Positions 2,966 to 7,623 of a stretch of DNA of 64,000 bases are shown here, one piece after another. A model generated the notes under the pieces. The model made no database searches, had not been told where the DNA came from, and was given only the letters and a program-made list of their open reading frames with translations. A program made the translations under genes and the position numbers. This DNA comes from Hyphomonas sp. (GTDB taxonomy: Bacteria > Pseudomonadota > Alphaproteobacteria > Caulobacterales > Hyphomonadaceae), in the NCBI RefSeq assembly GCF_022844445.1, contig NZ_JALHLS010000001.1:248001-312000 (forward strand), written 5' to 3'. Positions within the stretch are counted from its first letter, which is position 1. Every line of letters begins with the position of its first letter.

Positions 2966-4078
2966 CTATTCGATGATCTCGTAGCCTTCCGGAATAATGA
3001 AGGGTTCGACCGAGGCGACGCCGATTTCCGGCTCGAGCTGTTCACCGGGGCCATTCTGACGGCGCTCATAGGCCGCCACGAGCGAGAGGTAGGGCGCTAC
3101 GTGCACCCAGCCGTGACCGGCCGTGTTCTGAACAATCTCGAAGTGAAGGTGGATCGTCGTCGGCGTGCCGCCGAAATCGTTTGACACATAGCCGATCAGG
3201 TCACCGGCCTTGACGTTCTGGCCGGCCGTGACGGCGAGGCGCTTCATGTTCAGGTGCATGTAATTGTAGATCGAACCTTCGCTGCGCAGCTTGACAGTAT
3301 AGGTGCCGATCGAAGTGATGATGCCGTCCTCGACTGCGATCACCTCGTGCAGGCCCCGCTCCGCTGCAGACTGCCGGCGCAGCGCACTGCAATCAGCCGC
3401 TGTGCCGACGCGGATGTCCTGGCCCTGGTGGATCTTGGCCGTGGGGCAGAAGGGCGTTGTGCGGTTGGCCGAGCGGGTTTCGCAGAAATTGTCGCGCCAG
3501 GGTGCTGAGTAGTTTCGCGCGTCGCATTGGTCACCGCCGGCCACGCCGCCGCCAAATGCAAACACCTGCGACTGCAACACTGCCGGCGCAGACTTGATCG
3601 GAAAAAGCATGTTCGGCACGTGCACGATCTGCTCGGGGAAGCCACCACCGGAGCCGGGCAGCAGGGCGCCCGGCTGGTAATAGCTGAACACCGGCGCCAC
3701 GGGCTCTGGTGTAACGACAGGCGGACCCGGCTCAGGCTGCGGCTCGGGCTCGGCGGGCACAGGCTCTTCGACCGGCACTTCGACATCCGGTGGTGTTGTG
3801 GGATCCGTCGCATCGACCGGATCGGGCGCCGGCGTCGTGCCGTCATCCGGCGCACCTGGCTCGGCTGGCGTTTCGTCAACCGGTTGCTCGACGGGCGTTT
3901 CGAATTCGGAATCGTCCACATCCGGCGGCGGCGGTCCGGGCGCGCCCGGGGGCAGGGGTTCTGGTGCTTCGGGCGTGGTCGGTGGCGGTCCGCCATCGCC
4001 AGGAAAACGTACGAAGTCGCAGGCAGCCAGTGAAGTCAGAAGCAGCGCGGCGGCCGCTGCAGCCAGTGTATGTCGCAT
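2966..4078 (-). CDS. M23/LytM family metallopeptidase lipoprotein with Pro/Glu-rich linker
   Basis: Lipobox LLTSLAAC; M23 metal-ligand motifs HQGQD and HLHFE; ATG overlaps the upstream gene's stop (TGATG). Confidence 0.85.
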   Translation of the reverse strand: MRHTLAAAAAALLLTSLAACDFVRFPGDGGPPPTTPEAPEPLPPGAPGPPPPDVDDSEFETPVEQPVDETPAEPGAPDDGTTPAPDPVDATDPTTPPDVEVPVEEPVPAEPEPQPEPGPPVVTPEPVAPVFSYYQPGALLPGSGGGFPEQIVHVPNMLFPIKSAPAVLQSQVFAFGGGVAGGDQCDARNYSAPWRDNFCETRSANRTTPFCPTAKIHQGQDIRVGTAADCSALRRQSAAERGLHEVIAVEDGIITSIGTYTVKLRSEGSIYNYMHLNMKRLAVTAGQNVKAGDLIGYVSNDFGGTPTTIHLHFEIVQNTAGHGWVHVAPYLSLVAAYERRQNGPGEQLEPEIGVASVEPFIIPEGYEIIE

Positions 4079-4716
4079 CAACGGGTTCCTGAAATCGCGA
4101 GGTCGCGTGCGAAGGCGACCGCCTCGTCCTCGGTGATGCAGGCGGGCAGCCCGTTCACCAGTTCCTTGCATTCGAATTCGACCAAATAGTCCGCGCCATA
4201 GCGCGAGAAGGAGACCTGTGCGCCAGTCGTGGTGGGCTGGAAATTGAACGCGTCCGTACGCGAAGGCGGTGCGGCGCCCGGCTCGGCCATCACGACATTC
4301 GTGCCGTTGACAATGATGTCGTAGGTCTCAGTCGGGAAGAACGCGTAATAGCCGTCGCTCGTCGGCTGGAAGCGTACTGCGACATCACCGCTCTGCGCGG
4401 CCACTGGGCCTGCCGGCAGGAAGACCGGTACGGGCGGCGCCTCGCCGCCAGACTGCACCTGGAAGCTTCCTTCTCGCTCCTCGAGCGGGCGCGCCGCAAG
4501 GTCACGGCGGGCGCCTTCCCAGTCGATTGTGGTACCACTGGCCGCCATCGCTGGGCGGACCGGCAGCTCCACTTCGTCAGTCGCCGGAACATCTGTGCTG
4601 TCAGCCGGCACGGCGGTCTCGCCCGAGGTGTCGGCCGGGCGCTGGAAAACGCGGTCGCAGGCCGTCAGCGCGAACGTGCTGGCGATAAAGGCAGTCAGAA
4701 GTAGCGTACGGTTCAT
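4078..4716 (-). CDS. Hypothetical lipoprotein
   Basis: Signal MNRTLLLTAFIASTFALTAC (lipobox); no family recognised. Confidence 0.7.
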   Translation of the reverse strand: MNRTLLLTAFIASTFALTACDRVFQRPADTSGETAVPADSTDVPATDEVELPVRPAMAASGTTIDWEGARRDLAARPLEEREGSFQVQSGGEAPPVPVFLPAGPVAAQSGDVAVRFQPTSDGYYAFFPTETYDIIVNGTNVVMAEPGAAPPSRTDAFNFQPTTTGAQVSFSRYGADYLVEFECKELVNGLPACITEDEAVAFARDLAISGTR

Positions 4717-4721
4717 CAGGT

Positions 4722-5300
4722 TCAGTCCTTGCCGGGGTGGGCCACATAGTCAGGGTCTGCGTAAGAGACGCCTTCGATCTTGAGAAGGCGGTCCTGGACC
4801 GCGCGGATTTCCTCCGGCGTCGCCGGTATGCCGGGCGGCATCTGGTAGGCGAGCTTTATCTCGCCGGAATAGCTCGCCCCTGCCAGCGTAAAGGCGCTGA
4901 GGCCTGGCAGCCGCGTGACAAGCTCCTGCCAAGCGGCCTGCGCAGCCGCCGGTTCACGCTTGAAGTTGCGCGTTATGGTGTCGATTTCCGGCGCACCCTT
5001 AAGACGGACGATGAACTGCACTTCCGTGCCATCTGCCCGCGCCGGGCGCTCCACCGGGGCCACGGGCACCGACTCCACCTGCGCAAGTTCCACGTCGTCG
5101 CGCCCGAAATCGGGATCGGACGCAGCCGGGGATTGAATGTCGACGCTGAGCGCCGGTGCAGCAGCCGGCGCCTCGCCGGGCGGCGGCGGCGGATCATTGT
5201 TGATCGCCGCAATCGCAAGCGCGACCGCACCGCCCACACAGCCAAGTCCCAGCGCGCCGAGTGGCCCTCCCAAATGCAACGGCGCGCGGGTTCCCGTCAT
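4722..5300 (-). CDS. Membrane-anchored protein with inhibitor I9 / S8 propeptide-like domain
   Basis: N-terminal hydrophobic segment GALGLGCVGGAVALAIAAI; C-terminal VQFIVRLKGAPE...IRAVQDRLLKIEGVSYADPDYVAHP resembles the I9 pattern ending V-x-Y-x-x-P/D-D. Confidence 0.6.
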   Translation of the reverse strand: MTGTRAPLHLGGPLGALGLGCVGGAVALAIAAINNDPPPPPGEAPAAAPALSVDIQSPAASDPDFGRDDVELAQVESVPVAPVERPARADGTEVQFIVRLKGAPEIDTITRNFKREPAAAQAAWQELVTRLPGLSAFTLAGASYSGEIKLAYQMPPGIPATPEEIRAVQDRLLKIEGVSYADPDYVAHPGKD

Positions 5301-5301
5301 G

Positions 5302-7623
5302 TCAGCGTCCTCCCCCGCCTGTCGCAGCGGCCGGTATGCTGGAAAGATTGAGCAGGCCGGTGCCGCAGGGCCGGGCACACATGTCCGGATTGCCGGTCAG
5401 CGGAGTAGTGCCGGGATATTGGCTGCACAGGCCAGAACATTGGAGCGGCTGGCGCGGATCCAGCGCGCCTGTCAGCGTCGCGATCAGTTCTTCCTTTGTG
5501 GCCGAAGGCGCCCGCGCCTTCAGCAGCGCCAACGCCGCAGACACATGCGGCGCCGCCATGCTGGTGCCCTGCTCATAGGCATAGAAGCAGTTGGCAACGC
5601 TCGCACCCGTCACCGGGTCGTAGCAGTTCGTGGCCGCCTTGGTCGACAGAACGCCATCTGGCTTGCCGTCACCATTGTCATCGCGTGTAAGGTCACCGCC
5701 AGGAGCAAGGAGCGTGACTTCCGGCCCGTAGTTCGAATACGGCGTGATCTGTCCGCGCGCATCGCTCGCCGCCACCGTGACAACACCACGGCACCCAGCC
5801 GGCGCATAGAAGCTCGTGGACATGCGGGCATTGCCGGCTGCCGAGACGACGATCGCGCCGCGCTCCGTGACCGCATCGATCGCGTCCTGTAGTGAGGCCG
5901 GGCAGGCGCCGAGCAGGCCGATCGACAGGTTGATGATGTCGGCCGGGTTCTCGTTCCAAACTTCGGTATCAGCCGGGCCTTCGGCCGGGATAAGACCGGC
6001 CGCCCAGCGTATCGCATCGTTGATGTCCGAAAGACGCCCGCCGCACTTGCCAAGCGCCCGCACCGGCACGACGCGGACATTCCACGCGCCGCCAGCAACG
6101 CCGGCGCCGTTGTTTGTCGAGGCGGCGCCGACGGTTCCCGCCACATGCGTGCCATGGAAACTGTCGGCGGCATAAGGTTTGGTCGGGTCACACATGTCGC
6201 CCGGATCGTTCGCGTCACTGTCACGTCCGTCGCCGTCATTGCCCATGCGCGGATCGGAGACCATGTCCCAGCCAGGCATGATGTTGGGCGATCCGGCAAT
6301 GTCCGGATGCGTCATCTGCAGGCCGGTATCGATCACGGCGACAACCACGCTGCGGGATCCAGCCGTGCCCTGGCGGGCCCAGAAGGATTCAAAGCCTGCC
6401 CCGCCGGCCGTGCGCCCGTCGGCCGCGCCACGGTCACGGAAGTGCCACTGCAACGTCCAGAGCGGATCGTTCGGCAAGAAGTTCGCCGGGGTGGTGGAAG
6501 TCGGCGGCTTCGTCGAGCTACCGGTCGTGCCCCCCGATCCAGCAGGGGGCGGGGCATCCTTCGTCCGCCGCACAAACTGGTTCTGGAAGATGAAATCCGG
6601 CTCGACATACTCGAACTGTCCGGACGCCCGGAGGTCGCGCACCACGCAGGCAGTCGCCAAGGCCAGATCGCCGGCCACTTCACTCGGCTGAATGCCTTCA
6701 GGGCAAGCGGCAGCGTCTGCCCTTGCGAGGAAATCTGCAGGCCCGATTCCGGCGCCCCGGAATTGGGTCGGGCTCGCGCCGTCCGCACCGATCTGGATCA
6801 CCATCTGTCCCTGGCGGGACAGGGCCACCTCACCACCGATGCCATACTTTGTCATCGTGTCGAGCATCACCGAGTTGGCATCAATCTGCGCCTTGATCGT
6901 GTCGCGCGAGACGGGCGCCCGGCGGGCAAGCTTGCGCATCTCGGCCTTTTCCTCGACCGGCAGCGCCTTGAACTCCTCACGGGTGAGCCCCTTCAGGCGG
7001 CGCTGGGCAAGCGGCTCCTCGGCGACCATCTTGTCGATGTCTGCGCCCGCTTGCGCGATTTCGCGCTCGGACTTGGCGACCGCGCGGGGATCGAGGGTGA
7101 TCTTGGGCAGCACCTGCTCCGGTTTCACCGCTTCTTCGATGGGCGCGCGCGAACTTGCAGCATCCGGCGCGGAGGCGGGGGGTGGCAGGGACTCCAGCAC
7201 CTCACCCGAGCCGGGCGATTCCTCATAATAGTACTCTTCCTCAAAGTACTCGAGCTCTTCCGCAGACAGGGCCGTATCTTCCATGGCAAGCGCCGACGTC
7301 GGCGGAATATCGATCGGCTTCGCGATGATCGAGCCGATGGCAAACATCGGGCGCTCTTCCTCGTCGACGACGAACTCGGCCATCACAGTGCCCGCGAGGG
7401 CCCGGTCTTCGGTAGATGCCGTCTGCAGGTTGCTTGCGCCGGAATCCACGATGGTTTCGCCGCTGATCTGGCCCGCCGAGGTCTCGGCAACTTCCTTCGC
7501 TCTGTCGATCCGCTCGGTGATCTGGCCGCACCCGGCCAGCAGGATTGTACCTGCCAAGCCAGACAGGATAACCCGGCGCAGGTGCCGCTCTGTCAGTCGA
7601 TTCAACATGTTGGTGGTCCCCAT
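5302..7623 (-). CDS. S8 (subtilisin-like) serine peptidase, lipoprotein
   Basis: Catalytic motifs VVVAVIDTGLQMTHPDI (Asp), FHGTHVAGTVGA (His), GTSMAAPHVSAALALLKA (Ser); lipobox ILLAGC; prodomain end FEYVEPDFIF. Start at 7623 or 7608. Confidence 0.92.
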   Translation of the reverse strand: MGTTNMLNRLTERHLRRVILSGLAGTILLAGCGQITERIDRAKEVAETSAGQISGETIVDSGASNLQTASTEDRALAGTVMAEFVVDEEERPMFAIGSIIAKPIDIPPTSALAMEDTALSAEELEYFEEEYYYEESPGSGEVLESLPPPASAPDAASSRAPIEEAVKPEQVLPKITLDPRAVAKSEREIAQAGADIDKMVAEEPLAQRRLKGLTREEFKALPVEEKAEMRKLARRAPVSRDTIKAQIDANSVMLDTMTKYGIGGEVALSRQGQMVIQIGADGASPTQFRGAGIGPADFLARADAAACPEGIQPSEVAGDLALATACVVRDLRASGQFEYVEPDFIFQNQFVRRTKDAPPPAGSGGTTGSSTKPPTSTTPANFLPNDPLWTLQWHFRDRGAADGRTAGGAGFESFWARQGTAGSRSVVVAVIDTGLQMTHPDIAGSPNIMPGWDMVSDPRMGNDGDGRDSDANDPGDMCDPTKPYAADSFHGTHVAGTVGAASTNNGAGVAGGAWNVRVVPVRALGKCGGRLSDINDAIRWAAGLIPAEGPADTEVWNENPADIINLSIGLLGACPASLQDAIDAVTERGAIVVSAAGNARMSTSFYAPAGCRGVVTVAASDARGQITPYSNYGPEVTLLAPGGDLTRDDNGDGKPDGVLSTKAATNCYDPVTGASVANCFYAYEQGTSMAAPHVSAALALLKARAPSATKEELIATLTGALDPRQPLQCSGLCSQYPGTTPLTGNPDMCARPCGTGLLNLSSIPAAATGGGGR

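Follow-up and report, generated by a model that had tools for sequence, protein, structure and literature searches.

A conserved four-gene envelope locus of Hyphomonas joins a subtilase and a stand-alone subtilase prodomain to an M23 peptidase and its partner lipoprotein

Introduction

Bacteria control peptidoglycan endopeptidases through systems such as CtpA-LbcA of Pseudomonas aeruginosa and Prc-NlpI of Escherichia coli, each of which combines an S41 protease with a lipoprotein adaptor (PMC11021448). In Hyphomonas neptunium, the gene of the M23 enzyme LmdC forms a tight operon with that of its regulator, the bactofilin BacA, and LmdC controls cell shape (PMC10945521). Subtilase prodomains encoded apart from any protease have been described as Plasmodium SUB1-ProM, Toxoplasma MIC5, Pleurotus proteinase A inhibitor 1, the yeast proteinase B inhibitor and Arabidopsis SPI-1, and the characterised members of this group act as inhibitors (PMC6993865). 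Here we describe a four-gene locus of Hyphomonas sp. (assembly GCF_022844445.1), located in a 64,000-nucleotide stretch (contig NZ_JALHLS010000001.1, positions 248,001 to 312,000; hereafter, the window), which encodes an S8 subtilase lipoprotein (S8), a membrane-anchored inhibitor I9-like protein (I9), a further lipoprotein (LP) and an M23 peptidase lipoprotein (M23).

The likeness of this locus to CtpA-LbcA and Prc-NlpI lies in an envelope serine protease and a lipoprotein that act on M23-type hydrolases, with MepM among the described substrates (PMC11021448); at the present locus such action would be the counterpart. However, the protease here belongs to S8 rather than S41, LbcA is helical with tetratricopeptide repeats (TPR) whereas LP is predicted to be beta-rich, and the lipoprotein of the described systems is tied to the protease while LP is tied to the hydrolase and is accompanied by a stand-alone prodomain (PMC11021448). 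We therefore rejected assignment to CtpA/Prc-type hydrolase control, as the protease is S8, the LP model is mostly beta and LP has no TPR match; the model that we favour is that this locus would be functionally similar to these systems but built of unrelated parts. LmdC resembles M23 in being an M23 enzyme of the same genus that is encoded in a tight operon with a partner, but LmdC is a bitopic protein that contains a coiled coil, and it works with a cytoskeletal protein, unlike the M23-LP pair (PMC10945521); an LmdC homologue is encoded elsewhere in the genome that contains the window (G000:C2:28834-28947), and six Hyphomonas genomes have an exact match to the LmdC peptide of H. neptunium. 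With regard to the stand-alone prodomain mimics, I9 is likewise the product of a separate gene with a subtilase prodomain fold and, as for SUB1-ProM, its gene adjoins a subtilase gene; it differs in being bacterial, membrane-anchored and encoded in an operon with a protease and a cell-wall enzyme, and the inhibition characterised for the mimics would be its presumed role here (PMC6993865). No description of the operon or of an M23 partner lipoprotein was found in the literature searched, which covered few subscription journals; all components except LP belong to known families, and the combination, as well as a stand-alone membrane-anchored bacterial prodomain, appear to be new.

Results

The original prediction, made from the DNA alone, described four near-contiguous or overlapping minus-strand genes whose products carry three lipoboxes and one N-terminal transmembrane (TM) helix. 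The open reading frames (ORFs), their strand and their junctions all proved to be as it gave them, with a 1-bp gap between S8 and I9, a 5-bp gap between I9 and LP, and a 1-bp overlap between LP and M23 (TGATG, 4076-4080). The features, in window coordinates, are as follows.

5302..7623, minus strand: S8 subtilase lipoprotein (P0001), 773 aa, with lipobox LAGC32, a pro-region of ~350 aa and a catalytic domain at ~384-720
6519..6623, minus strand: end of the S8 pro-region, ~residues 334-368, with I9-type motif 'VVRDLRASGQFEYVEPDFIFQ' (hhalign against the I9 family)
5470..6354, minus strand: S8 catalytic domain, residues 424-718 (Pfam PF00082), with D432 at 6328-6330, H490 at 6154-6156 and S688 at 5560-5562
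4722..5300, minus strand: stand-alone I9-like subtilase prodomain with N-terminal TM anchor (P0002), 192 aa
4731..5027, minus strand: I9-like domain, residues 92-190, beta-alpha-alpha-beta-beta-alpha-beta, with C-terminal tail YADPDYVAHPG
4078..4716, minus strand: M23-partner lipoprotein LP (P0003), 212 aa, with LTAC20-D and a conserved C-terminal domain containing C183 and C193
2966..4078, minus strand: M23 peptidase lipoprotein (P0004), 370 aa, with LAAC20-D, a Pro/Glu-rich linker and then the M23 domain
M23 active-site residues, minus strand: H217 at 3428-3430, D221 at 3416-3418, H310 at 3149-3151 and H312 at 3143-3145

Orthologue signals bore out the predicted anchors, as lipobox-type signals were found in 53/56 S8, 53/61 LP and 47/64 M23 orthologues, with many of the non-matches being truncated or mis-started ORFs; only 5/53 I9 orthologues carry such a signal, and I9 is thus TM-anchored rather than a lipoprotein. 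Most S8, LP and M23 orthologues have Asp at position +2 after the lipid-bearing Cys, although in the window S8 this position is Gly (CGQ), as against Asp in 43/53 orthologues. In E. coli, Asp at +2 keeps lipoproteins in the inner membrane, and together with the TM helix of I9 this residue points to one membrane compartment for all four proteins.

S8 matches Pfam Peptidase_S8 (PF00082) at E=2e-52. Among 56 orthologue rows, D432 and H490 are each conserved in 55, the remaining row having a gap, while S688 and the oxyanion residue N598 are present in 56/56; an Asp-His-Ser triad in an S8 fold, conserved in every row with a letter at these positions, confirms the active site as intact, as had been predicted. 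The closest solved catalytic domains are those of a Pseudoalteromonas arctica subtilase (5yl7) and of Dichelobacter AprV2, BprV and AprB2, which share the mature N-terminal stretch of S8. As the mature chains of these Protein Data Bank (PDB) entries start at the equivalent of S8 residue 384, the mature N-terminus of S8 is predicted to lie near this residue, which places the lipobox on the pro-region; the Dichelobacter enzymes are described as extracellular, whereas S8 is lipid-anchored via its long pro-region. Maturation would hence free the catalytic domain from its lipid anchor, and I9, itself anchored in the membrane, would then be what could hold S8. When the pro-region was compared with the I9 family by hhalign, only the motif at its end aligned (E=5e-4, Prob 31%); on this alignment S8 carries a prodomain-like region of its own, so I9 would be a second prodomain. 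Membership of S8 among type VII mycosins (TIGR03921) and the type VII secretion system (T7SS) was rejected (99.5 bits, with a cut-off of 278.75), and PADLOC returned generic subtilase matches only.

For I9, as for LP, no Pfam or NCBIfam family was matched by the window protein. The AlphaFold2 model of I9, with pLDDT ~93-98 over residues 91-180, shows two helices on an antiparallel sheet, the arrangement of subtilase prodomains. In a Foldseek search with this model, ranks 1, 3 and 5 were taken by one subtilase entry and by two prodomain chains of convertases, with a best E of only 0.034, and the best PDB match of the I9 profile was the BPN' prosegment (1spb_P), with the tail in register (E=0.093). 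The subtilase prodomain family Fervidolysin_NPro-like of Pfam was matched by 7/42 orthologues (best 1.5e-4). In BPN', Glu69 and Asp71 of the prodomain are helix-capping acidic residues (PMC6993865); the equivalent of Glu69, I9 position 182, is D or E in 42/42 orthologues, position 184 is D in 32/42, and A187, the P4 equivalent, is found in 41/42. The C-terminal tail thus aligns with the active-site cleft and carries the acidic capping residues, and it extends one or more residues beyond the P1 position. These signals are weak singly but concordant, and because fold, register with the BPN' prosegment and capping residues all fit, I9 is a genuine stand-alone subtilase prodomain; the propeptide-like nature first proposed for it holds on both fold and residue evidence. 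Membrane-anchored I9 paralogues with no adjacent S8 were also observed (L253-L264), several of which adjoin a Rieske-like gene or have metabolic genes on both sides.

M23 matches Pfam Peptidase_M23 at E=4.5e-10, and H217, D221, H275, H310 and H312 are invariant in 64/64 orthologues; the HxxxD and HxH motifs, predicted to be intact, are also invariant in 31 broad sequences. LytM, LasA and ShyA have the M23 catalytic domain in common with this enzyme, with weak similarity (best E=3.5e-6), but the present subfamily is set apart by additional cysteines, which are invariant, and by the motif YPWRDNFCE. M23 is found throughout Hyphomonas, and most genomes have a single strong copy. In LP, which has a mostly beta predicted structure, C183 and C193 are invariant and possibly form a disulfide. 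Homology of LP to RseB/MucB was rejected, as RseB was the top Foldseek match (E=0.026) but hhalign gave Prob 0.7% and there was no PF17188 match.

The gene at 4078-4716 had been called an orphan, a description that did not survive. Searches with an LP profile over the order and the class, followed by reading of the loci, found a gene for the same M23 subfamily adjoining LP, and in a reverse test, in which loci were picked by M23 alone with no detectable LP, LP was directly upstream or fused in all but one, which is masked upstream. Across the whole set of fetched loci, LP precedes the M23 gene in 105 cases and is fused to it in 2; the remainder comprise 2 contig ends, 1 locus masked upstream and 1 giant caspase-domain protein. 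Judged by gene neighbourhood, LP and the M23 proteins of this subfamily form an obligate pair throughout Alphaproteobacteria. The natural fusions are single ORFs of ~545 aa (L281:1701-3338 and L301:3371-5011). A second LP gene lies upstream of the pair at six loci (L147, L149, L151, L157, L169, L170), which suggests LP paralogues with split roles, and in one family (f5; L065, L066, L067) LP-M23 adjoins MotA-like and OmpA/MotB-like genes and not S8-I9. The caspase-domain protein (2301 aa; G000:C2, L061:4061-10966), encoded in the same genome as the window, contains WD40 repeats, TM segments, an M23 domain and a C-terminal caspase (C14, 1.2e-17). Its M23 domain is 46% identical to P0004, with the catalytic H/D and HxH replaced (STSIVRI, LGIGFE), and its gene adjoins FGE-sulfatase, TIR and AAA genes; it looks like a conflict system in which a captured copy of this M23 domain serves as a pseudoenzyme.

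The four genes are conserved as a block. In a first sample, the I9 gene was present in 36/37 Hyphomonas genomes, and in the fetched neighbourhoods S8, I9, LP and M23 lie on one strand in this order save where contigs end inside the block, an arrangement seen in nearly all Hyphomonas genomes searched. The same order, with tight gaps, is kept in eight further Hyphomonadaceae genera examined, including Henriciella and Hirschia (named relatives with LP are species of Hyphomonas, Henriciella and Hirschia), and one genome of a neighbouring family (G058) also has the complete block, its I9 gene being found only by reading the gap. As the flanking genes vary from genus to genus, the block itself is what is conserved, and because synteny is not confined to one genome but extends across genera and families, the module is real. 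Among 105 Hyphomonadaceae genomes, 82 have both LP and I9, 10 have I9 alone, none has LP alone and 13 have neither (Fisher p=8e-11, with kinship ignored), in agreement with the co-occurrence expected of a module. At four loci the I9 gene is too diverged for BLAST and was recovered by reading the gap, one copy (L127) being apparently frame-disrupted. I9 as a widespread alphaproteobacterial protein was rejected, since a class sample of 289 genomes yielded I9 in Hyphomonas only; beyond this genus it was seen only in other Hyphomonadaceae and in two genomes of other families (G058 and G304).

Loss of the block was observed in Henriciella. Where the operon is absent from genomes of this genus, the genes that normally flank it adjoin each other, the functional domains of S8 and I9 are gone, and LP and M23 are gone entirely. 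The gap in 7/8 such genomes checked holds a ~65-aa lipoprotein matching the S8 N-terminus, several gaps contain, in addition, a short peptide that matches the membrane anchor of I9, and one genome (G067) has kept a nearly full I9. Since only anchor remnants persist at this site, the functional domains of S8 and I9 were lost together. The ~65-aa lipoprotein (CDRQQERLDRVQDIAEGVSEQV...; L292-L298) lies between an alpha/beta-hydrolase gene and the next gene, and its third-codon-position bias suggests that it may still be under selection and be retained for some purpose.

Discussion

Cross-genus synteny, co-occurrence and the fold of I9 support the original proposal of a self-contained envelope module made up of a subtilase, a separately encoded propeptide-like protein as its putative regulator, and an M23 hydrolase. 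Two corrections apply: LP-M23, which occurs without S8-I9 in most Caulobacterales families, is the core, with S8-I9 a lineage-specific layer added upstream of it, and I9 would be a second prodomain. In the model that we consider best, held with about as much doubt as confidence, the subtilase is tethered to the membrane, is under double control and would itself regulate a peptidoglycan hydrolase formed by M23 and its partner. The four genes would be co-transcribed and would form an envelope-anchored peptidoglycan-remodelling unit with two layers. In the core layer, a dedicated LP would bind the M23 lipoprotein and control or position its activity. In the added layer, found in Hyphomonadaceae and a neighbouring family, the subtilase would be made as a zymogen that is lipid-anchored through its own pro-region, and the membrane-anchored I9 would bind the S8 active site in trans and keep S8 inactive at the membrane until I9 is displaced or degraded. 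Freed S8 would then cut LP and/or M23, for which the proline-rich linker of M23 is an obvious candidate target, and would thereby turn cell-wall cleavage on or off. A fuller version, in which the pro-region of S8 bears the lipid anchor, I9 locks the enzyme in trans and S8 is released onto M23 via LP as a two-key switch, and in which LP founds a family that is wide in Caulobacterales and sporadic in other Alphaproteobacteria, is offered tentatively, as doubt here outweighs confidence.

Several observations weigh against this model. S8 would not be needed for the basic function of LP-M23, which in most lineages occurs without S8-I9; the link of I9 to this S8 is not a strict one, given its paralogues without an adjacent S8; and, as S8 has a prodomain-like region of its own, the second prodomain may serve not to inhibit but as a chaperone, an adaptor or a substrate. 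In addition, a promoter and terminator scan of the locus found nothing above shuffled background, and the Asp+2 retention rule is an E. coli rule to which the Gly of the window S8 does not conform.

The main rival, which we regard as unlikely, holds that S8 and I9 are an independent periplasmic quality-control protease and its inhibitor, co-transcribed with LP-M23 through a shared envelope programme without acting on either protein. The wide occurrence of LP-M23 without S8-I9 and the I9 paralogues elsewhere would fit this explanation, but every complete locus examined has S8 and I9 next to LP-M23, and the joint loss of functional domains at the Henriciella site is not what a mere shared regulon, which would tolerate separation, leads one to expect. 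It is improbable that I9 is mainly a trans folding chaperone or a membrane tether for S8; its membrane anchor would suit such a role, yet the S8 pro-region already ends in a prodomain-like motif, and the stand-alone propeptide mimics characterised to date are inhibitors (PMC6993865). We consider it very improbable that LP-M23 is a toxin-immunity pair, in which an exported M23, processed by S8, cuts the walls of rivals and LP inhibits it. The obligate two-gene pairing and the duplication of LP genes in some lineages are features of such pairs, but M23 is a lipoprotein with Asp+2, it is genus-wide and mostly present as one strong copy, the LP-M23 fusions would place toxin and immunity on one chain, and no secretion-system genes were recognised adjoining. 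Finally, a chance neighbourhood of unrelated exported proteins, conceivable in that compact genomes often put genes close together, is rejected, as gene order is conserved across genera and families while the flanks change.

For the regulated peptidoglycan-remodelling unit that we favour, the implications are several. Peptidoglycan hydrolases need restraint, and this locus would represent a subtilase-based solution, as compared to the S41-based controls of other Gram-negative bacteria (PMC11021448). An inhibitor domain split off as a protein of its own is represented in the literature searched by parasites, fungi, yeast and plants, and not by bacteria, where it would here be a membrane protein. 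Two unannotated genes become a candidate inhibitor (I9) and a candidate M23 partner (LP), and the LP-M23 pair, with its natural fusions, gives many alphaproteobacterial genomes a new unit for annotation. The stalked budding growth of Hyphomonas requires localised wall synthesis (PMC10945521), and the four-gene set, common to the family of this budding marine genus, has the look of a switch by which cell-wall remodelling would be controlled.

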